NCBI RefSeq assembly: GCF_001653235.2
Contig: NC_035795.1
Location: 2,604,001-2,668,000, forward strand
DNA: 64,000 nt
DNA from: Pochonia chlamydosporia 170
Lineage: Eukaryota > Ascomycota > Sordariomycetes > Hypocreales > Clavicipitaceae
Direction of reading: 5' to 3'
Each line of letters starts with the position of its first letter. The stretch's first letter is position 1. Shown here piece by piece: positions 28,759-58,809 of this stretch. Both the position numbers and the translations under genes were made by a program. The notes beneath the pieces were generated by a model. The model made no database searches, was not told where the DNA came from, and saw only the letters and a list, made by a program, of their open reading frames with translations.

Positions 28759-30634
28759 CTACGCATACTCTTCCATATCGCCTCTCGCAGCCTCGATCTT
28801 CTCATCGGGGACAGGTGCAGTAAGGCCCAACGTCGCCGCAATATTGAACAACCTCATCTTCTCTTCATGAGCAGCCGTGTCTCCGAACGCAATGTCCATG
28901 TCCTCAAGGCTCTTGCCCTTTGTTTCAGGGATAACAAAGTACGTGAATGCCAGGGCGATTAGACAGAAACACGCGAAAAAGATGTACGTCCCCCACTTAA
29001 TGTTGTCAAGCATATCCGGCGTCACAAGGCCAATGATAAAGTTGCACATCCAGGTAGCACTCGTCGTAATAGCCATAGCCTTTGACCGGTTGCCGAGATT
29101 GAAAATCTCAGATGGTAAGACCCAGCCGATTGGGGCAAAGGAATACGAGAAGTTGATGTCGTAGATGTAGATGAAGGCGATGCCAGTCCAGGCGGCTGCT
29201 TTATGCGACTGGAGTTCGGAGCCGTATGCGCCGATGATGGCGCCCACGATGACGAGAGATACAAATGTTCCAAAGGCTCCGCACATGAGCAGGGGTCGTC
29301 TACCCACCTTGTCAATGAGGAAGACGGCTGGCAGGGTAGACAGTGTGTTCACGATGCCATACACGCCAGTTGCCAAGAGGGAGGTCGTGTTTCCTGAGAG
29401 CCCGAGTTGCCCAAAGATGGTTGGTGCATAGTAAATCAATGCGTTGCAGCCCATGAACTGCTGCAAGAACATGGTTCCTGATCCAACGAGTAATCGTTTA
29501 AAGCTTGGCCACGTAGAAACGAGCGAAGCATACTGAGAGAGGTACAGACTCGCACCGCTTTTCCCGGGGAACTGGTCTCGGGCGACAGATTCGTCGAAGA
29601 GAACTTCCGCTTTAATGGCCAAATACTCCTCTCTCAGGCTGTCCGAATCCGGGTGTACTCGTCGTAGCTTGCCCAATGCACGGAGTGCCTTCTCCTCACT
29701 TTTGCGCATGAGGTAGAATCGAGGCGATTCTGGGAAGAATAACATGCCAATACCCAAGATCAAAGCAGGGGCAATTTGTAAGGCAAACGGGACTCTCCAT
29801 GCTGCATCGCTTTGCCCGGTACAGCCATTTGGACCGACGTCGTGTCTCGGATCGAATTCACGGTTTGACTCCGTGCCACCAGTGTAAGGGATGTCTGGGG
29901 CACATCGTGTGCCACCAATGTACTGCGTGCCGTATTCCAGCCAGTAGCTCACAAGAATACCGAGTGTAATGCTCACTGTGTACAACTTATTAGCATTGCG
30001 GAATCAATCCCTGGAGGGAAAGTTAACTTACACTGCTGCAACACGACCAAGGTACCTCGAATCCCAGGAGTCGATACTTCGGACATGTACATGGGCACAA
30101 TCATGGTCAACATACCCACTGAGAAACCGGCAATTGCGCGGCCTATGCACGTCCGTAGTCAATACATTGTTCACACGGTCGCACTGCTGAAATGATGTCT
30201 CACCTGCAAATAGGACCCCGATTGATCGTGCACCTGCCTGAAGTCCTGATCCCAAGACAAACACAACAACGGCAGCAAGCATTGATCCCTTGCGACCAAA
30301 ACGGTCTGCAATGGGACCATTAACCAAGGATCCCAACCAAGCAGCAAGCAGAAGCGTCGACACGAACCAGCCCTTGAAACCACTATCAAGGTAGATACGC
30401 GGGAACTCTGCGCCAAAAGATTCCATTTTCAGGACCCCAGAAACCACACCTTGGTCATAGCCAAACAGAAAACCTCCCAATGAGGCGAACTAAGGCTCAA
30501 TTCCATTAGCAAAAAGTCGGAATCAAATATTTTCTTGGGCAGACCCTTACGGCAGAGAGTCCAAAGATATACGGGTTGTCGCGCAGCTGGCGCCAGACGC
30601 CTTTCGACGTGCTTGTATCAACGAGCTGAGACAT
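28759..30634 (-). CDS. MFS sugar transporter
   Basis: Exons 30551-30634, 30204-30489, 30032-30142 and 28759-29975 give 565 residues. The sugar-porter signatures are intact: GGFLFGYDQGVVSG in helix 1, DRFGRKGS between helices 2 and 3, PESPRFY before the central loop, QQFMGCNALIYYAPT in helix 7, DKVGRRP, and PETKGKSLEDMD at the end. The long exofacial loop with two cysteines (RCAPDIPYT...GCTGQ) resembles fungal monosaccharide/quinate-type H+ symporters. The substrate is not readable from sequence; the neighbouring Gal4-type regulator and three Gal4-type sites in its promoter suggest an inducible sugar, perhaps galactose or lactose. Confidence 0.93.
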
Positions 30635-30777
30635 CTTGAATAGACACCAGAATGTAATCCGCAAATTCCAACATGCAGTTCCTGGCAGCTCTGCCACGTG
30701 CTCTGGGGTATCTCCGCGAACACTGATTAGGCACGCGGGGAACTTTATATTCTTTGACAGAAATGTTACCCAACAGC

Positions 30778-30794
30778 CGGACATGAAAATTCCG
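30778..30794. promoter_or_regulatory. CGG-N11-CCG site 1 (Gal4-type)
   Basis: CGG at 30778-30780, an 11-bp spacer with A in the centre, CCG at 30792-30794. It lies 144 bp before the transporter start. Spacing matches the yeast Gal4 operator. Confidence 0.6.
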
Positions 30795-30859
30795 GAGGTC
30801 ACTTCCCCAGATGGAGGACTGCTATTTGCATCGACGAGGATCATGACTCTGTGGGGGGT

Positions 30860-30876
30860 CGGACGACACTCGTCCG
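30860..30876. promoter_or_regulatory. CGG-N11-CCG site 2 (near-perfect palindrome)
   Basis: CGGACGACACTCGTCCG. Both arms are complementary around a 3-bp centre, and it agrees at 14 of 17 positions with the idealised yeast UASG 17-mer CGGAGGACAGTCCTCCG. 226 bp before the transporter start. Confidence 0.65.
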
Positions 30877-30996
30877 GCCCAATTAGCGATAGAGTGTGAT
30901 TGGGGTTGCACCACTTCAGATGATCTTCAGCCGAATGTTGTGGAGAAAATGTGGTTGAACCCCCACAACCCAGAAGCCCAGCAGCGACTGCCGTGC

Positions 30997-31013
30997 CGGG
31001 CGTCTGCAATCCG
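30997..31013. promoter_or_regulatory. CGG-N11-CCG site 3
   Basis: CGG at 30997-30999, 11-bp spacer with T in the centre, CCG at 31011-31013; 363 bp before the transporter start and about 95 bp past the regulator's stop codon. Confidence 0.55.
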
Positions 31014-31108
31014 TCATAGCGATGGGGAATAATGGAAATAGCATGGCGTTCGACAATGACGCCCTATTTGCTCATCATGGGCCAGGTAATCGGAACCAGC
31101 CTCCTGTT

Positions 31109-33456
31109 CTACACTCCCTGCCCGAAATCAGTCCATCCCAAAGAGTTAAAGACATCAGCAGGATCCATTGGCCAGGTTGAGAAGTCCAGCTCGTCTCGAT
31201 AAAACTGTTCGTCGCCAATGATGGGGCTGGTTGTCTGCTCAACTTGTGGCGGTACGATGAGGGCTAGAATATCGGCGCAGCGAGACGCAAGTGGATTGCT
31301 CGTCAGCATTGTGCGAAATGTGTTATTCGCCAAGTCGACATCAGCCTGCCATGCAGTGATTTCAGGAGATTCCAAGTCGCCCAAGATGGCAAGGGCGCTG
31401 ATTAGAGACGCGTGGAATAGAAAGTATCTGTCACCTGGTCAGTATGGAATATACGCCTCTCGCCCTTGATGACTGTTTCCTACTTACGTAGCGTACCAAT
31501 TTATCAGTCGAGTCATTGGCGTCTGCGTAAGAAATTGGCTTATTGACGAAATTGTTGCATGCGCCGCCTGGACTGCCAAGTCTCTGCACTTGTTGTCTGG
31601 GTCCGAGGACACAAGGGTGGAACGGTCTCGCGTCCTTTTCATGGCACGACTCAAAACAATCTGTCTAAACAGAATAATTCTCAAGTTCCAGATGCGCCAC
31701 CATAGCCGTGACCTTGCGAACAAGTAGGAGGGCTCCAAACTGACGGGGTCCTGCGTCATCTTGAAATATGCAGGCAAGGTGTCCGACCATGTTTCAAGCG
31801 AATGGTTCAGCCGCAAGGCTTCTTCAGACGAAATACCAGACGTGGCGAGAAGCCTGTTGGAAATGTGGTTTGAGTGAAGATGGAAGTCACTCTGGCATTT
31901 GATGCTGGAGTATCGTGTCGGCTGGCTGGACTCTTCTGGCATGTCCACAGTCCGGGGAGTCAATTGCTGCAATGGTTAGACTCGAGATTCTTCTCTTCAA
32001 TGTTGAGCATCATGACTTACTTCGTCGTGAATGTTAAGAACATGTTTAACATCCATAGCCTCTCCTTCGGGAAGCAGAATAGGTCTACCAAACGTTGTTG
32101 ATGCGCCACTATCAAAAAGGAATAGCCCCCACCAAACGCGTCGTCTCATTTCTCTCTGAAGAAGGCTGATGTTCCAATCCGGGAGTTCACGATGCAGCCC
32201 CAAGCTTAAAGCCATACGTGTCGCTAAGCCTAGGAAATTACCTCCAGTGTTCGGCTTGTTTCGTTTTTGACTCAGATTGGATAGAAGCAACAAAGCCTGG
32301 ACCAGCGTCAAGTTGGCGCTTTCAAACAAGGACTCATCCTCACGAAATGAAAGCGCTCGATGGTACAGGTAGTCATCAACTTCGCTCTCTTCATTATCAA
32401 GACACCAAGCTCCTAGGGCTAAGACCGTGTGCAGTAACATTTGCCAGGATTGCTGATTGGGCCGAGGGATGAGTTGGTGGTACTGAGCCATGAAGGTTGC
32501 TTCATGAATGAACGGATAGGAAACGTGGTATACAGAAAAATACGCATCGAGTAATTGGTTCGCCATATGTCCAGACTCAAGAGAATGCTGTATATGCGAT
32601 GACGACGTTGGCGACGGCTTGAAATGCCTCGGCGAAGCAGTTGCAGGCTGGAACGGATCAGAGACAGCCCTTCTGCCCGCGATCCATGTTAGTAAAGCTC
32701 GGAGAAAGTACACTCCGGCAGTAGATCCTATGTATACATATCAGTTTCCGAATAGGTTTGCCTTTTGCTCAGAAGAAGAAATGTACCAACCTAAATAACC
32801 CGTGCCCGTGGGTTCCACTGCCAGCGCCGCCATGCCATCCACCAAGTCGTTTGCTTCTTCCTGCCAGTCGAATCCATCTGCTTGCTCAGGGACGGCCTCA
32901 GATATCGACTCATGTGCTGTCTGTTCCTTGCTACTCGAGCTTCCACCGGCGGCAGCGTGCCTGCGCTGGTCTGAGGGGAAAGCGAGTGTCTTCACTTGAG
33001 CCGGCGGGGTAGCTGGAGATGTAGTGGCAATACCAGCCAGGGCTTCATCAACATCTAGATCCGGTAGTTTCTGTGCCACCAGCTTCTCTAGATAGTTGAG
33101 TCTTCTTTCAACAGATGTTAGGTACCTGGTATTTCTGTCAGCAACACGCACGGCATCGACGTTGGTCTCACAACATACTGTCTGGTGAGTGGCGAACGCA
33201 CCACCTTGCCACTATAGTGACATTGTCGGCGGTTTTGGACACAAGCTGTGCAAGTCGGGCGATCCTTGGAGCACTTCAAACTTGTTAGCCTTTTTGTTTC
33301 AGGTTTTTGCCCAAGGCTGCGCGATGTTATGCTCACCTTCAGCTTCTTGATTCGGCACGCATCGCACTGCGAGAGTGTCAGTTGTTTGCGACATATTTGA
33401 ACTCATGTTTGACCACTCACAGCCAAGTTGCTACTGGAACTGGAACTCGATTCCAT
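31109..33456 (-). CDS. Gal4/Lac9-like Zn2Cys6 transcription factor
   Basis: Seven exons (33421-33456, 33337-33366, 33179-33273, 32791-33125, 32021-32727, 31488-31966, 31109-31427) give 666 residues; all phases match. After MESSSSSSNLA comes CDACRIKKLKC with cysteines at 12, 15, 22, 29, 32, 39, each one position later than in yeast Gal4 and with identical spacing. The linker and dimerisation start (VVRSPLTRQYLTSVERRLNYL) carries the Gal4-family signature RSPLTR..LT.VE.RL. A fungal-specific middle homology domain spans about residues 190-500 (YHVSYPFIHEATF, MALSLGLHRELPDW, RRRVWWGLFLFD). The C-terminus is acidic and aromatic (DELDFSTWPMDPADVFNSLGW), a plausible activation domain. A sugar-responsive activator is likely, with the adjacent transporter as target. 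Confidence 0.92.
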
Positions 33457-34236: not shown

Positions 34237-34751
34237 TTGGATACATTGCTTGTGGGTCGACGACCCGATTAATACCCTCAAGAAACAATCCCTCGTTGGA
34301 ATCCTCATAAACAAGTGGGTATGGGAAAGGGAAGAAAAGTTTTGATGGGCGGAAGACAGCCACTAGCCTAGATGTGGTTGTTGGTGTGAGAAAATTCTTT
34401 GCGCCTTCCCACCTATTTCCCATTTGGGCATTTACACGGAGCATGGTGACATACGTAACGTATAGATGAATATTGCCGGCTCTTCTGGCTGGGTCGATAC
34501 CGGCGTTTGGCGATGGACATTTCTCTGAGGTTTTACTGAACGTGGTATGGTTTCTTGGCTCTTTATCCTCTTCTCAGTTGTATTACTCGGAAGGGAAATA
34601 GACACGAGGTGAATTACTCACAATGGTCATTCACATATCTGTGGACTATTGTGCGAGAGGAAGCATTACAAATAGGAGCCCAGCGCCATCATTACTTCGT
34701 GAAATAATTTCTTGATGTAAAAGAGTATTCACATATAACAAAGCCATCAAA
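34237..34751. other. Intergenic, tRNA upstream region and PhyH promoter
   Basis: No gene visible. The region is divergent, tRNA on the minus strand and PhyH on the plus strand. Confidence 0.5.
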
Positions 34752-35799
34752 ATGTCCTGCGCCCAACACAACGGCCCATTCCCAACCGAGGCCGGCAAAA
34801 CACTCACATCTGTCTACGCCAACGACCCTTCCACCACAGGCGCCCTCCTCCAGTCCATCATCGAGCGCGATGGCGCTGTCATAGTAAAAGGTCTAGTGGA
34901 CGCAGAGCTCTGCAACAGAGTAAGAAAGGAACTTAAGCCGCAGTTTGACTCTGACCGAGTCGACGAATCCGGCTTCTTCCCCACCACCACAAAGAGAGCC
35001 CATGGTATTCTCGCATATTCTGACGCAACGGCCGAGTTGCTCGTGAACCCACTATTCCAGTCCGTCGCCAATGGCATGTTGACGAGCAACTACACCTATT
35101 GGGAGGGCCAGGGGAAGAAGACGGTTTCCGCAAAGCCACAAATTGCAAGTATCGTCGGGTTCCGTGTAGAGCCTGGTGGCACACAGCAAGCTTTGCACCG
35201 CGACGATGCAGACTATCATACTCGGAATTGCGATATGCCTGTAATGCTGGGCTGCGTAACGGTAAGAGATCCCGTACTCTGTATTGCCCTTCGACAGGTG
35301 ACACGTTCTGACTCTGCTGTTCTAGGCTTTAACAAAGACGACCAAAGAAAACGGGGCGACGATTGTTATTCCCAAGAGCCATCTGTGGGGTCCGGACCGC
35401 ATGCCCCTCAACGAAGAAGCCATCCCTGCGGAGCTCGAAGTAGGCGATGCCACAATTTTCGTTGGAAACGTCTACCATGCCGGCGGGGCGAATATTACCA
35501 AGTAAGATTGCCCATGTACCTTTTGCTGATCTTCGTGGTCGCTAATCATATCCCGCTCGTTTACTAGGGACGATGCTCGTGAAACCATCGGCATGTTCCT
35601 CTGCAAAGGCACCCTCCGCCAGGAAGAAAACTCCTACCTCGAAGTGCCACCGGAATTAGCCAAGAAGAGAGGATTCTCACCACAGGTATTGCGCCTCCTG
35701 GGCTATGGTATTGCCCCGCCGGCGCTAGGGCTGTACCAGTATCAGGATCCGATGAGGGTTATATTCGGCGTTGACGACGAAGAGACGGTCAAGAAATAG
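34752..35799 (+). CDS. Phytanoyl-CoA dioxygenase (PhyH) family oxygenase
   Basis: Exons 34752-35261, 35326-35501 and 35568-35799 give 305 residues. This is a non-haem Fe(II)/2-oxoglutarate oxygenase: the metal-binding HxD lies in QQALHRDDADYH, the distal His in NVYHAGGANITK, and the 2-oxoglutarate-binding Arg probably in DDARETIGMF. The N-terminal part (IIERDGAVIVKGLVDAELC) is a typical PhyH opening. Fungal members act in secondary metabolism or side-chain hydroxylation; substrate unknown. It is convergent with a Zn2Cys6 regulator whose stop is only 80 bp away. Confidence 0.88.
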
Positions 35800-35879: not shown

Positions 35880-37567
35880 TCACACGGGAAGAATTTGATA
35901 CCCATTTTCCTGAAATTGTTGAGCCAGCGGTCTCCAGTCCGCATTTGACGCTGCCCAAAATACAGTCAAAAAGCTAAGTATGTCGGCATGGTTCTTGAAT
36001 CCAGTCGTCTTTGTTATGTCTCTAAGTAATTGTGTGACAACCTTTTGCTTTGCCACATCATCATGGGACTCGGCCCCGGCAATAAATGCCGGCCATGGTA
36101 AATTGTGAGCACACAAGGCAGGATCTTCTAAAACTTTTAGCTGTTCAAACAATTTCTCTACCGAAGCCTTCCAATCTATATTGTCGTAGTTGGCGTAGCC
36201 CAGACAGCGGTAGGAGTACAGTACAGCAGTATGGTGGTAGATGTCGACGAGGCGTACAAAGTCACGGCGTACAACTGCTGGTTCGATTCGTAGTTTGCCT
36301 GCGGCTAGCAGCGTGGCCCCTCGTGCTTGAGTGAACTGCGACCGGATGAGAGTGGCGTCCGGATAATTGCCTAAGATCAAGGAGTTGGTGTCCATATTGA
36401 ATGCGGCGCGACGGGAGAGCAGTGTAACGAAATGGAGGAGGGAGAGATAATGTGAGAAGAGGCCGTGTTCTGTACCGGGTGGCGGGAGAACGGTATCTTC
36501 GATATCTTGGAGATTGAAAGACGTGGTAGATGCCAGTACATCGTAAATAGAGAGTTGGTTTCGGAGAAAACGAAACAAGCCTCTGTTGCTTGCCTCCTTT
36601 GTTGTGAAGACGTTAACAAGCGTCCGCGCTGCCCGTCGATGTCCCTCAGCCGCAGCAACCTGTGAGTTGCTCATCTCGTAGCAGGATATCATAAGAATAG
36701 AAGCTAGAATCCACTCCGCTTCGGCAATGTCGGTACGGGTATTAAGCTCAGACCCATCTGTCATTCGACACGTCATGTTCTGAATATGGCGGTTAATCAG
36801 TCCAAGACAAGCGTCCCTAGCGGCTTCGGGGAAGCGCGGCATATCGAGAGAAAATGTTCTTCCACCGTGGTGGGCTGCAATCGCGGCAACGGCGTACTTG
36901 ACGGCGGGGGTGCTCGTAGCCAAGGGCAGTACACGTCGTCGATAGTCGTTCTCCTCCGAGTCAAACCACACCATGAGTCCAGCCAAGTTCTTGTCGTAGT
37001 AGTCGATGAATTCAAGGGACGAGCTGCGCAAAGTAAGATCCAACGGCATCGGCAAGGACATAGCTGGCGGGCCTGTAGCTGGGTAAATGTCTTCAACGTC
37101 GTCTTTCGACCCTGATGCAGACGAAGATGTAGGCGCAGATGTAGACGTAGATGGAGGCCCATCTCGCTGGTGATTACCCGCGAGATTATCACCAACATTC
37201 TGCACGTTCTGCGGCAGCGGGATCATCTTGCCCTTCAGCTTGCCTCGCACAGCAACGCCGCCTGCCCACCGCAGTCGCGGGCCGTAGCCAGGACACTCGA
37301 GTCCACGTTTCACACATTTCTGACAAACAGGTCGTGTGAGATCACATCGGATGCGACGTCTAGTGCAGGTACTACAACCCTCTGATTGGTGGTATTGGTG
37401 AGTATGTTGCAACTTGAGATGGAAAACGGCGGGGGAAGAAAAAGAAAGACCAGACATCTGGACACTTGACCAGACTTGACCAGACGGACGACCTGACAGC
37501 CACAGTCTGGTAACAATAAGGGAATAAACGTACTCTCGGGGGTGGCTTTTGGGTCCTTGGACACCAT
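35880..37567 (-). CDS. Zn2Cys6 transcription factor with fungal_trans_2-type domain
   Basis: Exons 37534-37567 and 35880-37381 give 511 residues. Exon 1 encodes MVSKDPKATPE, joined (phase 1) to KGCSTCTRRRIRCDLTRPVCQKC, then VKRGLECPGYGPRLRWAGG, the standard opening of this regulator class. The binuclear cluster spacing is CX2CX6CX5CX2CX5C. A region starting SSLEFIDYYDKNLAGLMVWF begins the large middle domain, with TRTDIAEAEWILASILMISCYEM further on. Adjacent and convergent to the PhyH gene; regulation of PhyH is possible but nothing in the sequence shows it. Confidence 0.88.
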
Positions 37568-38423
37568 TAGGGCTGTAGTAGAGACATGTGCGCCGATGGA
37601 AGTGTAAGCTCCTGCTACCGTTTTGTCTCACTCACAAAAACGGCAAACACAGCAGAGAGTTTGAAAAGGTTTGTCTTTTGTCTTGTCGCATTGTCGAGGT
37701 CCAAAGTCCGATGTGAATCGGATTCTACGTGGCGATGAGTGGCGGACGCCACAAAATATTCAAAATGGCACTAGTCCGACTTGAGCAAATCCTAGCATGG
37801 ACCTGCTTGCACCTTGTAAGTGACAGACATGGTTTGTTTATATTTGGCATCAAGGGGACCTGGCTCACAAATTAATTGATCCCTGCCAGCAATCACGGAT
37901 GCTACTTGTATGCAAGATGTAGGATATAATTGCACTGTGAAGATCCAGAGTCCTCCTGATACAAGAAGTTGAGCTGTCTGCCCTCGTCATTGATCAAAGC
38001 CGCCTTTCCCTCGTCACTGATCTATATGTACCTCCGTCGTGCGACACAACAAATCAGAGCTGCCCATTCTGCCCAAAGTCGCCAGGCATTTTGCAACTCC
38101 TCCAGTCTCCATTCAAACCCTTGACATCTCGCATTCAACTAGGCCAGTCAATACTCGCTCGCAGTGAATCATCTTCAACACATTCGTCCCATTCATTGCC
38201 CACGAAACAGTCTGGTCCTACTCTTTGTTCTCTTCAACAATCCCGTTCAACGAACATCACACCAGTGAATCACAAGCAATGCACCTCGCACCCGTGAATA
38301 GACTCGACCCCATTTTCATCTGGCAACCGTACATGATGCACCAGCACCTGCCGTAACCCGACCAAACATGTCCTCTGCATATTAGACGACTGGGACCTAC
38401 CAGAGTTGGCACTTTATTTGTCC
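37568..38423. other. Intergenic, divergent promoters
   Basis: No gene supported. The region before 38300 contains short Ser-rich open frames that look random. Confidence 0.45.
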
Positions 38424-51548: not shown

Positions 51549-54023
51549 CTAAATCAGTGTGATATCAACAGAATTGTTGGCAATGTCAAACATCATTTCT
51601 CCGTTCATTACGCCGTGCACATAAGCCTCACCCACCAGGCGATAATACCCTTCCCTCTCAGTAGGGCGGATCACAAACGGCACATCGCATCCGTGGACGA
51701 TAACCACAATATCGTCGCTTTGCGTGAGCAAGGGGACCAAGCCCATCAAACGATGCTCTGTGAAACACAACGCATGCTTGTTAGCTACGAGCCCGATGGA
51801 AGTTGCATATGCTGCACAGTCTGAAGGTAAGCCTGTTGTCGATCCAGCAGTAGTAACGCCAATGTATGCGAGCACATCAAGTGTTGCCACGGGGTAAATA
51901 TGGGCACACAGATAGTAACCCAATATCAAGAGAGTCGGCGCCAGCAGGAAAATGTACATCCGTCGAAAAATGGGAAGAAGTGAAACGAAAACCAGAGTCG
52001 GCTTGACCGCTATATACTGCATTCCCACTAGCACCGTCAAAATGCCAATCTGGCCAAGGATTGGTAGGCATCGGATTGCCGTAACAGCAACTGGCAACGT
52101 CACAAAGCATCCCATGATAGACAGTATGCCAGCTTTGTAAAATAGAAAGTTGTCGTGCCTTTTCATATTCTCATATTGCACAGCAAACTCGGGTGGTGCT
52201 GGTTCGCCAAGCATGGTTCGATTTGCGACCAAGGTGCGCCAAAAAGCTTCTAACATGGGCTCACCAGTAACATACACGCTTCCAAGTTTTGTGAACATGG
52301 ATTCGTACAAGGACACTGGGAGGAGTAATTTGCCTGGTAACACGACCTTGACGCGGCTAACTGGCACAGCTCGAACACACAACAGTCCCTGGCTTGCGTC
52401 GCCTCCAAATATCACTGTGGTGTTTCCTGCAGCGTTGTACAGGTTTGGAGGCGGTTCATTCTTCACCGTTGTGTTTTCCCCTTGCTTGCTTTCTTCCACT
52501 CTTGTCTCAATCTCACAGCCATTTGACACCAGGCTTTGGCTCCCACTGAATGGTGATGGAACACTTTGTGTGCTGCCTGAAGCGTGCGCTGCCTCTTCTT
52601 CCTTCTGCTTTTCGGCATTGTAGCGTTTCGCAGCCTTGTCATTGATGAGTGCAAAACGAGTAAGCCCGGGACTTTGGTCTTGTGAATATTTAATTGACGT
52701 CCAATCTGGTACCCAAGATGGCCGATCTTGTGCGGAAAACGTATTTGACGCGATGCCCGCCGTGGACAGAATGATCGCAAGGTGACCATTGTTGATGAAT
52801 GCAGCAGCAAATTGTGTCGAAACAACGGCCGGAGTTTGTTCTATAGAATATATAGGCTTATACCCCGCCGCATCCTCCGCGAGACCGAGAAGTCCATATA
52901 TTCGGTCGATAGGTTTAGTGGCCCGAAAGTTGCCTGTTCGGTGCAAGAGATCAAGCAGGCTTTGTTTTTCAAAAGGAAACGGATGTCCATTAGCCCGATC
53001 GGATAACCATCTATTTCGTGTAAACATTTCAAAGCCTTTCACGGCGTTCAAATCTTTCCTGATTGACAGCTTAGATGGGTCCGACGGCTCGCCTGTATCA
53101 ATATTGAATACCATATATGGCCCAGACATGTAGCCCCATGCGCGCATGCGTAAGTCAGTGACGAGATGCAGCGACCTGGCACCCTCGTGAGCCTCCCTAT
53201 ACTCATTTAATGTCCGGTTACCGAACAGATCTTTGGAATAGCCGTGATAGATGAGCTGCCTATTGGAGATGTATGCTTTGGACGCCAGCCATAGCCTATG
53301 CCAATCTATTTCAATGTCACCGCAAATGACACAGACGTCTGTTGCGTACACGAATTCTTGTATGATCCAAACCCTTCGAAACCACGGTCGACGAAAGAAA
53401 GCGCGTAGGGCAGCCCATCGCTTGTCGTTGGCTGGCGGGAGAACAAAGCCGCTCTGTAAGGCGAGTTCTAGGCCAATCTCTCCTTGAGAATGAGTCGAGT
53501 CATCCAGATGTTCAGAGTAGTCGGCTATTGACGATAACAGCTCCAAAGCCGCGGGGGCATTATCAGCTTCATCGCCTAGATAGACCTGGACACATGATGC
53601 AATGCGATAGACATCTGGCATAAGTTGAATCTGTTCCCCCTTTTCCGTGTTTGCGTTGGAAGAAATTTGATTGATGCAAATTGCGTCTGCCCATATTGTC
53701 CTAGGTTTGTCGGGCAATGCCAGTCGCCGGAGAATGGTGTGCAAGGTTGAGGTAATCGTGATGAAGAATTCCTGTCCTTCGCCACTACGGACAATGACCT
53801 TGAATGGAGTCCTGGTGTCGCTACCCCAATGATACGAGACTGCATCATAAGGGAGAGAGTGTTCCAAGTAACCTTGACCAGATTCAGTTTGTCGATACTT
53901 TGGGTTTGTTAACCGGTGATGAATAATGCTTCCGGAGAGAGGCTTTTGAGGATTCTGAATAGCATCAAGTTGCAATAAACGGATCTCTCCCGGTCGTAAT
54001 GGTTCATATTTATAGGACTCCAT
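51549..54023 (-). CDS. HET-domain protein with membrane-spanning region
   Basis: A single exon of 824 residues starting MESYKYEPLRPGEIRLLQL; an upstream non-ATG extension is rejected. The heterokaryon-incompatibility domain covers about residues 1-330: YDAVSYHWGSDTRT, TIWADAICINQ, and FRRPWFRRVWIIQEF. A later segment (about 625-740) has four hydrophobic helices (MGCFVTLPVAVTAIRCLPIL, GILTVLVGMQYIAV, LVFVSLLPIF, YIFLLAPTLLILGYYL). The C-terminus (HGCDVPFVIRPTEREGYYR, then VGEAYVHGVMNGE) is the usual end module of HET proteins. These proteins trigger cell death after fusion of incompatible hyphae; the function of this one is not known. Confidence 0.93.
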   Translation of the reverse strand: MESYKYEPLRPGEIRLLQLDAIQNPQKPLSGSIIHHRLTNPKYRQTESGQGYLEHSLPYDAVSYHWGSDTRTPFKVIVRSGEGQEFFITITSTLHTILRRLALPDKPRTIWADAICINQISSNANTEKGEQIQLMPDVYRIASCVQVYLGDEADNAPAALELLSSIADYSEHLDDSTHSQGEIGLELALQSGFVLPPANDKRWAALRAFFRRPWFRRVWIIQEFVYATDVCVICGDIEIDWHRLWLASKAYISNRQLIYHGYSKDLFGNRTLNEYREAHEGARSLHLVTDLRMRAWGYMSGPYMVFNIDTGEPSDPSKLSIRKDLNAVKGFEMFTRNRWLSDRANGHPFPFEKQSLLDLLHRTGNFRATKPIDRIYGLLGLAEDAAGYKPIYSIEQTPAVVSTQFAAAFINNGHLAIILSTAGIASNTFSAQDRPSWVPDWTSIKYSQDQSPGLTRFALINDKAAKRYNAEKQKEEEAAHASGSTQSVPSPFSGSQSLVSNGCEIETRVEESKQGENTTVKNEPPPNLYNAAGNTTVIFGGDASQGLLCVRAVPVSRVKVVLPGKLLLPVSLYESMFTKLGSVYVTGEPMLEAFWRTLVANRTMLGEPAPPEFAVQYENMKRHDNFLFYKAGILSIMGCFVTLPVAVTAIRCLPILGQIGILTVLVGMQYIAVKPTLVFVSLLPIFRRMYIFLLAPTLLILGYYLCAHIYPVATLDVLAYIGVTTAGSTTGLPSDCAAYATSIGLVANKHALCFTEHRLMGLVPLLTQSDDIVVIVHGCDVPFVIRPTEREGYYRLVGEAYVHGVMNGEMMFDIANNSVDITLI

Positions 54024-54948
54024 TTCACTATGATCCAATAATATCGTGACCTTCTGTTTTCAAAGTGACTGACAACATGGCACAGAGGAGACTCTGGGTG
54101 AGGCTCGGACAATGCCCACTCGCGGGGCTTTCGCTCGTAATAAGTAGGAAGCCGACTGAGGTTGGCCCTCCAAGACGAGTGTCCGCACAATTTGCATCAT
54201 GGCCCTGAGCTGCATCTAATAATTGCCTGATTAGGCGGATCTGGGCGGGCCGATTCCGCCGTAACAGGTGAGGTGGTTGTGTGACGGGGCTGAGCTGGCT
54301 GACGGAGGGTTGCATGGGGAAATCATAGCCTCAAAGCATCTTGGCGATATTGGAGCGTCGGTGAACTAGGACTATTACACCGTGAGTCGTGATATGCTTC
54401 AATCCCTAACGGTTTTGCTGGGTCTTCTTCGAGACCCATTGCCTACCATTGCTAGGGAGGTAGCCTGTGATGCTATGGTACCACGGCAATAAAGTGAAGT
54501 GGGCATATGGCAGTGCTCGCAGATAATCGTCGGATGGGGTGCAACACTAAGCGCCCGGCGAGTTTGTTCTTCTCGATGGTTGGTACAAAAGCAACAAGGT
54601 TGGGCAAACCATCCGTGGTATTCTCGAGAGAAAGAAGAAAGAGGTCTGGTACAGTCTGGTGCTTTCAACATGATGGCTTTCCGTGCTATGGGGAATCAGG
54701 AAGCTGGAACCCCAGCCAAGTGACGGAAGGAGCCCCACTTGAGCTAGGTCCCTCCCCACCGCACCTTCCATCTCCCTTCTGCAGGTCCGCCCTCCCAGAG
54801 TTGCATCGGCTTCTCCCAAACCATCTCAATTACACTCGACGGTTGATTCATACTTCTCGGCATTGCGCTGTCGCGGTAAATGCTCTCACAACTCCATTGC
54901 TTCGACTGCCCCTGATGGCGCCTTTGATGTGCCGTCATCGCCGCCATC
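54024..54948. other. Intergenic, divergent promoters of HET and Sea2/Rtc1 genes
   Basis: Several overlapping open frames at 54399-54956 look random. No gene supported. Confidence 0.45.
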
Positions 54949-57900
54949 ATGTATAATCGCGAGTCTAAGATCATGCGCAAGCTTCTCGGTAAGGCGGCGC
55001 CCGACTCTGCGGCTGGGGATCTCTCTTCAATAACAGGCACGACCACACCTATCCCGACCTCTTACCGCCCTTCCAAGTCGCAGAATGCTGTATATATCGC
55101 AGGCGCTCCGGTATCGTGCTTCGATGTTTCCGAGGATCGACGCGCCGTCGTCTTGGGCGGACCGCATATTCTCAAGTCAATAGTTCTGGACGATCCAAGT
55201 CTTTCCAGCTTCAGCTTCAATGACGGAATCGACGTACGTACGGCAATCACCACGAGGCAGTCTAGTGGATCCCGACAGAATGTTGTCGCAGATCAGCTGA
55301 ACATTCGCGACGTGAAATGGCATGGCAATTCTCAAATATATACGGCCTGTGGCAGCGGCAAGGTATTCTCGTATGACCTGACACGACTCGGGGCAGGCGA
55401 TAATGAGCCACTGGAATACATTATGACGCAAGAGGACTCGCGTCAGATGAACACGTTGGACATAAACCCTCACCTAAAAGCTTGGCTGTTAACCGGTGGA
55501 CAAGACGGAACTGCTCGCGTATTTGATTCATCGACCACAACTTCTGCGAGGCACGGTCTTAGCTTCAGGCAGCGCTTTGCACCGCTCAGGTGCATTGACC
55601 CAATCAGGCAAGTCAGATGGTCGCCGAGTAATGGCCATGAGATGGCCTGTTGTACGGAAAGTGGCGTGGTCATGAAGTGGGATGTACGACAACCTTCACG
55701 GCCGGTTCTGAGAATCAACGCACATGAGAAATCATGCTCAGCTATCGCATGGCACCCAGACGGAGTTCATCTGATCAGTGCTGGAATGGACACCAAGATT
55801 CACACCTGGGATCTAGCCACCTCAGACAAGAGACAGAAGCCCAAATGGACGATTTCCGCTCCTGCACCAGTAGCAGCCGTTGCATGGCGACCCGGACTCT
55901 GGTCTGCGAGTGCTCAGGCTAGACGTGTTGCTCAGATTGCTGTGACTTACGACGAAACCAGTAGTCGACGATATGGTACGTCAGCGGTGCACATCTGGGA
56001 TTTGGCAAGACCATCTATGCCGTACAAAGAAATCGAGAGGTTCGAATCCTCTCCTTCGGCCCTGGCATGGCAAGACCAAGATATGCTTTGGACCGTGGGC
56101 CGAGATGGAAGCTTCAACCAGTGCGATGTCGCCTTTGCCCCCAAGGTCATTGATCGTCAGTCAACTTCTGCCATGGCATTCTCGCCAAGAGGAGACGTGC
56201 TCATGTTCCTGGATGAGCGTACGCAATCACACCGGCCACGCTTGTCGGCTGCACACCAATCCGACGCTTTGCATCGCGCTACATATAGCTCTAGCCCTGG
56301 AAACCAAGGCTTAAGCATGAGTCGGAGTGATTCGGAAGACGATGTTTTAGGGACTTTTCTGGGACCGCGTAGAAGGATTCCTCGAAAAAGAAGGCTGAGT
56401 GGGCGGGGTACCATGCCCCTTAGTACCACACCACCGTCGGGAGGAGCGTCATTCCCAGAAGATAACAAGCAGAACATGGGTCTGGAGCCATCTATAAACG
56501 TCACAGGGATATTCAAATCTCAACAGGCCATGTCATTTGGGCATATACCCGCGGCGAAACCGGTTCAGGTCTATCATTTCTTGTCTAATGCGTATCTAGA
56601 AACGCTCAAACGCGAGCTGCCGTACATTGATGGTGGCAAGCCATTGATAGAGCGGGTGGGTGCCATCATGGAGCAGTATGCCAAAGCCGCCGAGGTGGCG
56701 AATTTATACCGCCTGGCCCAAACCTGGCGTATCCTCGCTTATGCTATGAATCTTCTCCTCAAACGCCGAGCGCAATACCACTTTGAAGTTCGCGTTGGTC
56801 AGTTTCAGAAGCTTCAGGTTGACGACGTCTCGAAAGGAGCGGATAAACTTAAGGCCTCAGAGATATATGCAAACGGGGAAGATACCCCACGGCGACCCTC
56901 AGGGCAGAGAAGCAGTATTGATAGCAGATTTCACTCCATTCGCTCTTTACTAGCAGAGGAGATCGAGAGCACATCGAATGTGCCAACACCGGTCGCCCGG
57001 CCAGTTGACAGTGTGATGAATGCTGGCTCGTCGGGCCACGAAGAAGTGGTGCATCAACACGGCAAACGATTGTCACCAATTGTTGAACCAGAATCTCTTA
57101 CCCTCGGTCCAGCTGCTCATGGGTCCTTTGGGGAATCCCGAAGCCCCAGGCAGCGACACGACTCAGAGCCCATATCAGTAGCAAGTGAACAGACAGACGA
57201 ATCCGAGACATCATATACAGAAGGCTATGACTTTTATGATGCCGAGGTGTTGGCCAAGGCGATTGATGTTCCCATGCCGAAAAGAAAAAGCAGCTCTAGA
57301 GGATTGCCTTTTCGCGGTAGGACCGTCAGGCAGGACTCAGATGAGAGCTTTGGTCAAATGTTCTCCATCTCAAATGGGACTAAGAGATCTGGGAGGATGG
57401 GGTCCAGCGGTGATGCGTTTGCGAAGCCGCTGAATCGAGAGTCGACCGATTTGGGGAGGGCCAGTGGTGCGTCGAGTGCAGACTCACCACAAACGTCCAA
57501 ATCATCCACAGAGAGAAACGGACGTCCGCCTCGCTCAAACGATTCTCAAGAAGAGGTATTCATGATTTCGCAGACGACAAAAACTGATGACAGCTATCCT
57601 TCCCAACCATCATTCACCTCACAAGACACTGACGGCGACTCTGGGGTCTCACCTCGCAATTCCGTTCCCGGAATCAGAACAAGCCGATCGGTCAGCCCCA
57701 GGAAGAAGGAGTCAGTATCGCCACGACATGATCCTCGACCTCATGTTATCGAATCCGACTATCTTCCTTGGGATAACGACCCTCCTTATCCTCACCCATT
57801 GAGCAACCATAACTCCAAAGGAGCTCTGACTTCGGCATCACCTCTTGACCCTTACACCCTTTTACTCCGAGCCTTGGATTTTGAGTCAAAAACTTCAGCG

Positions 57901-58809
57901 CTAAATGCCTCTGCAATGGTCTTACTACTGAAACCTCTGGTGCCTGCATCAGTTATTGATAGTCACAGGGCCAGTGCTATTCTCCGGCAGCACCATCTCC
58001 GGCTCATGCAGATGAGCTTGTTTGTCGAGGCAGGGCTTCTACGAAACATGTGCATAAAAGGATGGCCTACCGGCCTGCCAGACTGGGGAGACAACTACAT
58101 ATCTATATTTGGCGGGGCCCAACAAGGCGTCAAAGTAGGCTTGTTCTGCTCGTCGTGTCGCAAGCCACGAGAGGTCGACCCGTCAGCCGGCCAGGACGCA
58201 GTTTGGACCTGTGAACGATGCCGAAGCGTCATGGCCCCATGCTCGGTGTGCGGCCACCGTGAGGCAGAGCGTCCGTCCTTCATCCCCCCAGAAATTGCGC
58301 CATCCACTTCGGATATCGAGTCAGAAATGTGGTCATCACAATGGTGGTACTGCCCAGGCTGCGCTCACGGTGGCCACGCCTCCTGTCTCCAACTATGGCA
58401 TGGAGCGTCAGAGCCAGTCGCCGCAGCAGACCCATCTGCCAAGTACAGCGATGGATGCTGTCCCTCCGACGGCTGTGGCCACGCCTGTCTGCCGGGTAAA
58501 TATCGTGGGGAGACAACCACAGCTCGATCAGATGAACTTGGTCGTGCGGCTGTCGATTCATCACGAGTAAGAGACGAACGCGGGCCGGCGAGCCGCGGAG
58601 GTAGCAGACGATCCAGCCCCGGCGCACCATATGAACGAAGTGTGAAGAGCGACACGAATGATGTGCCTCAAAGTAAAGCCGTGGGCATGGCGAGAGAAGC
58701 ATTGAATAAAAGCAGTGGAGGGATATTGAGCTCCAGCCCAGGAAGATCAAGCGGCACTGGGGATAGAGAAAGGAGGAAGAGTGTCAAGTTTGCTAGGACG
58801 GACCGTTGA
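54949..58809 (+). CDS. RTC1: SEA complex subunit Sea2/Rtc1 (GATOR2 WDR24)
   Basis: A single exon of 1286 residues. WD40 repeats occupy about residues 45-400 (GGQDGTARVFDSS, ISAGMDTKIHTWDLA, VHIWDLARPS). A helical region follows (RVGAIMEQYAKAAEVANLYR), then a long disordered Ser-rich stretch, an alpha-solenoid part, and a C-terminal RING-like zinc domain with CSSCRKPRE, CERCRSV, CSVCGHRE, CPGCAHGGHASCLQ. This is the WDR24/Sea2 layout; it belongs to the vacuole-associated SEACAT/GATOR2 complex that activates TORC1 in response to amino acids. An additional Cys/His block after it (SDGCCPSDGCGHACLP) belongs to the same fold. Confidence 0.94.
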   Translation: MYNRESKIMRKLLGKAAPDSAAGDLSSITGTTTPIPTSYRPSKSQNAVYIAGAPVSCFDVSEDRRAVVLGGPHILKSIVLDDPSLSSFSFNDGIDVRTAITTRQSSGSRQNVVADQLNIRDVKWHGNSQIYTACGSGKVFSYDLTRLGAGDNEPLEYIMTQEDSRQMNTLDINPHLKAWLLTGGQDGTARVFDSSTTTSARHGLSFRQRFAPLRCIDPIRQVRWSPSNGHEMACCTESGVVMKWDVRQPSRPVLRINAHEKSCSAIAWHPDGVHLISAGMDTKIHTWDLATSDKRQKPKWTISAPAPVAAVAWRPGLWSASAQARRVAQIAVTYDETSSRRYGTSAVHIWDLARPSMPYKEIERFESSPSALAWQDQDMLWTVGRDGSFNQCDVAFAPKVIDRQSTSAMAFSPRGDVLMFLDERTQSHRPRLSAAHQSDALHRATYSSSPGNQGLSMSRSDSEDDVLGTFLGPRRRIPRKRRLSGRGTMPLSTTPPSGGASFPEDNKQNMGLEPSINVTGIFKSQQAMSFGHIPAAKPVQVYHFLSNAYLETLKRELPYIDGGKPLIERVGAIMEQYAKAAEVANLYRLAQTWRILAYAMNLLLKRRAQYHFEVRVGQFQKLQVDDVSKGADKLKASEIYANGEDTPRRPSGQRSSIDSRFHSIRSLLAEEIESTSNVPTPVARPVDSVMNAGSSGHEEVVHQHGKRLSPIVEPESLTLGPAAHGSFGESRSPRQRHDSEPISVASEQTDESETSYTEGYDFYDAEVLAKAIDVPMPKRKSSSRGLPFRGRTVRQDSDESFGQMFSISNGTKRSGRMGSSGDAFAKPLNRESTDLGRASGASSADSPQTSKSSTERNGRPPRSNDSQEEVFMISQTTKTDDSYPSQPSFTSQDTDGDSGVSPRNSVPGIRTSRSVSPRKKESVSPRHDPRPHVIESDYLPWDNDPPYPHPLSNHNSKGALTSASPLDPYTLLLRALDFESKTSALNASAMVLLLKPLVPASVIDSHRASAILRQHHLRLMQMSLFVEAGLLRNMCIKGWPTGLPDWGDNYISIFGGAQQGVKVGLFCSSCRKPREVDPSAGQDAVWTCERCRSVMAPCSVCGHREAERPSFIPPEIAPSTSDIESEMWSSQWWYCPGCAHGGHASCLQLWHGASEPVAAADPSAKYSDGCCPSDGCGHACLPGKYRGETTTARSDELGRAAVDSSRVRDERGPASRGGSRRSSPGAPYERSVKSDTNDVPQSKAVGMAREALNKSSGGILSSSPGRSSGTGDRERRKSVKFARTDR

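Follow-up and report, generated by a model that had tools for sequence, protein, structure and literature searches.

In the nematode-parasitic mould Pochonia chlamydosporia 170, a gene predicted to encode a Gal4-type Zn2Cys6 regulator (hereafter R) lies next to a gene for a sugar transporter of the major facilitator superfamily (MFS; hereafter T), and the 474-bp gap between them holds three CGG-N11-CCG sequences on the promoter side of T. We propose, with a probability of roughly 0.62, that R acts as a local, pathway-specific activator of T through these sites, a reading built on sequence comparison. R would dimerise via its Gal4-type linker and coiled coil and bind CGG-N11-CCG in the promoter of the adjacent monosaccharide-transporter gene, strongly at site 2 and more weakly at sites 1 and 3; it would then activate T when some sugar or sugar metabolite is present. 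The two genes belong to a stretch of 64,000 nucleotides (contig NC_035795.1, positions 2,604,001 to 2,668,000; hereafter the window), and positions given without a contig label are those of the window. The genome searched amounts to 44.2 Mb on 49 contigs. No study of the R-T gene pair was recognised in the literature searched. The features concerned are as follows.

28759..30634, minus strand: T, MFS sugar transporter, 565 aa, 4 exons (30634-30551, 30489-30204, 30142-30032, 29975-28759); gene model and Sugar_tr match.
30635..31108, minus strand: 474-bp gap, T promoter side and R 3' side; sequence and gene models.
30744..30749, minus strand: TATAAA, 5' end at -115 from the T ATG; pattern match only.
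30778..30794, no strand: site 1, CGG-N11-CCG, -144 to -160 from the T ATG; 10/17 to the Gal4 consensus.
30860..30876, no strand: site 2, CGG-N11-CCG, -226 to -242 from the T ATG; 16/17 to the Gal4 consensus.
30997..31013, no strand: site 3, CGG-N11-CCG, -363 to -379 from the T ATG; 12/17 to the Gal4 consensus.
31109..33456, minus strand: R, Gal4-type Zn2Cys6 regulator, 666 aa, 7 exons (33456-33421, 33366-33337, 33273-33179, 33125-32791, 32727-32021, 31966-31488, 31427-31109); gene model and domains.

Since T and R are both read from the minus strand, the gap lies upstream of T and downstream of R. Its limits, the T start at 30634 and the R stop at 31109, had been given in an initial annotation made from the letters of the window, and the gene models bear them out; the three sites reported there are likewise present, with A, A and T as the central bases of sites 1, 2 and 3. 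The TATAAA lies downstream of site 1 with 28 bp in between. The Gal4 consensus used for scoring is CGGASGACWGTCSTCCG, and site 2, the best match to it, has perfect 7-bp inverted arms with Gal4-like inner arms. The flanks read CCGG...CCGG at site 1, TCGG...CCGG at site 2 and CCGG...CCGT at site 3. The genome has two perfect copies of CGGASGANNNTCSTCCG, site 2 and one that falls within a YqeY-like open frame (L017), just before the domain; at this frequency about 2e-5 would be expected per gap of this size, for a pattern that was picked after site 2 was known. No CGG-N11-CCG occurs between 31014 and 34771, which leaves the region upstream of R without a site. Two further copies lie inside the T gene itself (29217 and 30139), where no operator is expected.

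The protein encoded beside these sites has the Pfam domains Zn_clus, Gal4_dimer (PF03902, E 1.5e-6) and Fungal_trans. Compared by phmmer with the sequences of the PDB, R matches GAL4 (E 5.9e-19) and LAC9 (6e-14), the next family being PPR1 (5.6e-5). Residues 7-83 of R and residues 5-81 of yeast GAL4 align without a gap; the alignment takes in the zinc cluster and the linker and reaches into the dimer helix, and it is this part, from cluster to dimer helix, that is known to set the N11 spacing. The cysteines are spaced CX2CX6CX6CX2CX6C (C13, C16, C23, C30, C33 and C40), and all six are invariant in an alignment of 31 sequences, R and 30 relatives chosen by hand from 120 listed matches of 405; so are the linker residues R48, P50, L51, T52 and R53, at identities among the 30 relatives of 42-91%. 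The Gal4 cysteine spacing and linker noted in the initial annotation are confirmed by this alignment, and the Gal4 character of R is supported for the zinc cluster, the linker and the dimerisation helix alike. At the C-terminus, R and its relatives have conserved acidic and aromatic residues which, we infer, would suit an activation domain. Among the 120 listed matches, full-length relatives are widespread in filamentous Ascomycota, in species that we take to belong to the Sordariomycetes, Dothideomycetes and Eurotiomycetes. Given this spread, and a site core shared with the mould regulators RhaR/PDR-1 (PMC5469009), the initial view of Gal4/Lac9 regulation of sugar genes as a hallmark of budding yeasts was overstated. 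A table of RNA-seq results for P. chlamydosporia gives RZR69169.1, a 'Transcriptional regulatory protein GAL4', at -2.866 (PMC8518118); this entry is at most a candidate for R.

The R-T pair is old in filamentous Ascomycota, judging from its distribution. Linkage was read from the 120 listed matches of R and 120 listed matches of T, the two being counted as linked when their matches fell on contigs of equal size. Thirty-one species appear in both listings; R and T are on equal-sized contigs in 23 of them and on unequal ones in seven (Metarhizium rileyi, Pseudomassariella vexata, Truncatella angustata, Stemphylium lycopersici, Fusarium fujikuroi, F. oxysporum and Fonsecaea multimorphosa), and one, Bionectria ochroleuca, has no contig given. 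The seven unequal cases say little, because one contig represents a whole cluster. Locus tags of R and T are consecutive in three of the 23 (Conoideocrella 6609/6610, Thermocarpiscus 2390/2391, Chaetomium olivicolor 9042/9041) and two apart in three (Fusarium solani, F. nygamai, Neocucurbitaria cava), and two gene models have R and T fused in the same order (P0004, Tolypocladium paradoxum; P0021, Achaetomium macrosporum). A transporter tree was built from 75 rows, namely T, its duplicate T2 (described below), 71 of the 120 listed matches and the two fused halves. Its 26 R-linked rows require 16 label changes, against a mean of 21.7 in shuffles, with 2 of 500 shuffles as low; a single clade of R-linked transporters was therefore rejected, and a label that is clustered yet scattered fits an old linkage visible in part of the assemblies. 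To look for the sites in relatives, T was run against viral contigs and the translated gap was used as a protein query; neither search returned a match.

In Penicillium janthinellum, among the entries classed as 'TF' and expressed only on cellulose, the one with the greatest fold change is a sugar transporter; its model has xylE and Gal4 domains and may be another fused R-T model (PMC10050438). The same work has Gal4/Lac9 down-regulated on cellulose (PMC10050438).

T matches Sugar_tr at E 1.2e-122, and from end to end it shares 100% identity with P0121, 'MFS sugar transporter [Pochonia chlamydosporia 170]'; its best PDB match is STP10 (E 2.2e-56). Its sequence reads GGFLFG, then Y and D, near the N-terminus and Q-Q...N further along; we take these to be in helices 1 and 7, respectively. 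That Tyr occurs in xylose-preferring transporters, and the prediction of substrate from sequence is called difficult (PMC8425032). Database names of its relatives include 'D-xylose-proton symporter' among others, which is a label and not a test. A close duplicate, T2, is found at C7:2768956, about 75% identical to T, and groups in the transporter tree with a second Conoideocrella protein. R is not beside T2 (C7:2767700-2772900, L039); another regulator-like gene lies downstream of it in convergent orientation, a 534-aa frame with 24% identity to R over 181 aa. Upstream of T2 there is no CGG-N11-CCG in 1,256 bp, where 0.23 sites are expected by chance and zero is the commonest chance outcome of what is a single comparison. 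In this one comparison of T with T2, the sites accompany the transporter copy that stayed beside R.

How far the three sites exceed chance depends on whether the gap or the genome is considered. CGG-N11-CCG occurs 8,239 times in the genome, or once per 5,367 bp; at that rate the gap should hold 0.085 sites and the probability of at least three is 9.7e-5, rising to 3.2e-4 when the rate is taken from the window (18 sites), and no dinucleotide shuffle of the gap, out of 5,000, has three or more. The N11 spacing is mildly commoner genome-wide (8,239) than N12 (7,702) or N10 (6,870), while the reversed controls climb steadily from N10 (11,571) through N11 (13,084) to N12 (14,174).

Several findings weigh against our proposal that R acts on T through these sites, and they concern the distribution of the pair, the quality of the sites, their number and the identity of the factor. 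T-like rows are present in Trichoderma, Beauveria, Cordyceps and Akanthomyces, none of which is named among the 120 listed of the 405 R matches. Agreement with the Gal4 consensus is poor at sites 1 and 3. Extended Gal4-like sites with at most one mismatch number 26 in the genome, against 24 for the reversed pattern, and hence are not enriched genome-wide. Equally compact triples are expected 6.9 times in the genome, or 14.8 times with the clustering measured at one distance range (70 pairs 50-80 bp apart, against 47.6 expected), and if any spacing from 0 to 25 and any orientation are allowed, 2% of 1,500 gap shuffles contain a triple. The site cluster by itself would thus not stand out from a genome scan.

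From these figures it could be argued that the sites cluster by chance, the linkage of R and T having other reasons and any regulation going through other DNA. The 7-15 such triples expected genome-wide and the shuffled triples just mentioned favour this explanation, as do the two N11 sites inside T and a window that is not significantly site-rich (18 sites against 12.9, with 10 of 100 shuffles as high). We consider it on balance unlikely, for the probability is about 1e-4 for a single gap and a spacing predicted by the regulator, site 2 is near-palindromic, and no triple within 474 bp was found among the first 100 listed sites (710 kb of C1) or among the 39 sites counted in other loci that total 244 kb, these loci having been picked for other reasons and their central extended sites left out. 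The cluster counts as more than chance only because its spacing and site type are those which the adjacent regulator predicts.

The sites could also be real operators for another Zn2Cys6 factor that recognises CGG-N11-CCG, be it an orthologue of RhaR/PDR-1, a CLR-2-like factor or R2, a paralogue of R. CGG-X11-CCG has been shown for RhaR by electrophoretic mobility shift assay, and the element is extended to TCGG-X11-CCGA for PDR-1 (PMC5469009); for CLR-2, an N11 element printed as CGGN11CGG appears in a review (PMC5468973). R2, at C1:5068991 and 46% identical to R over part of its length, likewise has a PLTR linker, so that R as the sole Gal4-type factor of the genome was rejected: R is not the only factor with a Gal4 linker. 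An MFS sugar transporter adjoins R2 and is 26% identical to T, and the region C1:5063500-5075500 has just two CGG-N11-CCG, both within the R2 gene itself. Control of T by one of these factors nevertheless seems quite unlikely to us, since none of the three sites carries the TCGG...CCGA flanks, the inner arms of site 2 are Gal4-like, and R is both the neighbour and the only Gal4_dimer match in the Pfam search of the genome, in which two candidates were scored.

A galactose or lactose module functionally homologous to the yeast GAL/LAC system, for which the Gal4/Lac9-grade DNA-binding domain of R and database labels like 'lactose regulatory protein lac9 and GAL4-like' would speak, is very improbable: there is no CGG-N11-CCG within 1.5 kb upstream of either the galK match (PF10509, C5:402678-402821) or the galT match (PF01087, C4:736515), growth of T. 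reesei and N. crassa on galactose needs ARA1 (PMC8425032), and Candida albicans Gal4, whose DNA-binding domain is 86% similar to that of yeast Gal4, does not control galactose (PMC2749448). The single site of the galK locus (L012:928) is on the 3' side of the gene. A galactose regulon was accordingly rejected, and with it the galactose part of the compact Gal4-type uptake module suggested in the initial annotation; what remains of that module is a Gal4-type R, an old pair and sites that are enriched in the T promoter and absent at T2.

A wider set of targets was sought around the 26 extended sites, that is, site 2 and 25 others, of which the surroundings of 20 were taken. Reading frames and Pfam matches were viewed around six of these 20 loci, and the other 14 were used for site counts and tblastn with R and T. 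The extended site of L036 is in overlapping frames, one of them with a weak Myb match; that of L021 lies between a transketolase and a methyltransferase; and that of L019 is beside a Sugar_tr gene, on its 3' side. No pattern emerged among the six loci with Pfam-annotated frames, and a genome-wide Gal4-like regulon was rejected. The target set of R looks small, and the two Leloir genes galK and galT are not obvious members of it.

We tentatively extend the proposal that R activates T, as a possibility well short of an expectation: in the R-T pair, filamentous Ascomycota may have an uptake switch of ancient origin, with a Gal4-type protein acting via CGG-N11-CCG on a single adjacent monosaccharide transporter, Gal4 recognition being older than its role in galactose use. 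If true, the Gal4 mode of DNA recognition would be independent of galactose control, which yeasts would have acquired later. Gal4 is the textbook eukaryotic activator, and for its closest-looking mould relatives no description of a role was found in the literature searched; a conserved regulator-transporter pair with matching sites offers a testable case for Gal4-type control outside yeasts. The T promoter could also serve as a tool in this biocontrol fungus.

Elsewhere in the window, a PhyH dioxygenase-like frame (34716-35564, plus strand) and a second Zn2Cys6 regulator, with Fungal_trans_2 (35883-37631, minus strand), lie upstream of R. A HET-domain gene (51552-54038, minus strand) adjoins a gene for a WD40-repeat protein (54949-58806, plus strand), a combination that occurs in fungal incompatibility loci.

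Among known systems, RhaR/PDR-1, the mould regulator of L-rhamnose and pectin use, shares the CGG-N11-CCG core with the T promoter and differs from it in the flanks of its element (PMC5469009). ARA1 of T. reesei and ARA-1 of Neurospora are, like R, Zn2Cys6 regulators, and affect sugar-transporter genes of Sordariomycetes (PMC5468973, PMC8425032); in contrast to the action proposed for R, ARA1 controls arabinose and galactose genes (PMC8425032), and its DNA element was given as unknown in a 2017 review (PMC5468973). The likeness to S. cerevisiae Gal4 and K. lactis Lac9 covers the DNA-binding domain, in which R has the same cysteine pattern, an RSPLTR linker of the same length, the Gal4_dimer helix and, as in Gal4, the recognition loop KKLKCSK; it extends to the presence of CGG-N11-CCG in a sugar-transporter promoter, whereas the galK and galT matches and the region upstream of R differ from that system in having no such sites. 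We know of no transporter adjacent to the Gal4 of C. albicans. That protein binds glycolytic promoters, in which it differs from the proposed action of R on T, and offers a parallel in combining a Gal4-type DNA-binding domain and CGG(N11)CCG sites with a role in sugar metabolism other than galactose use (PMC2749448).

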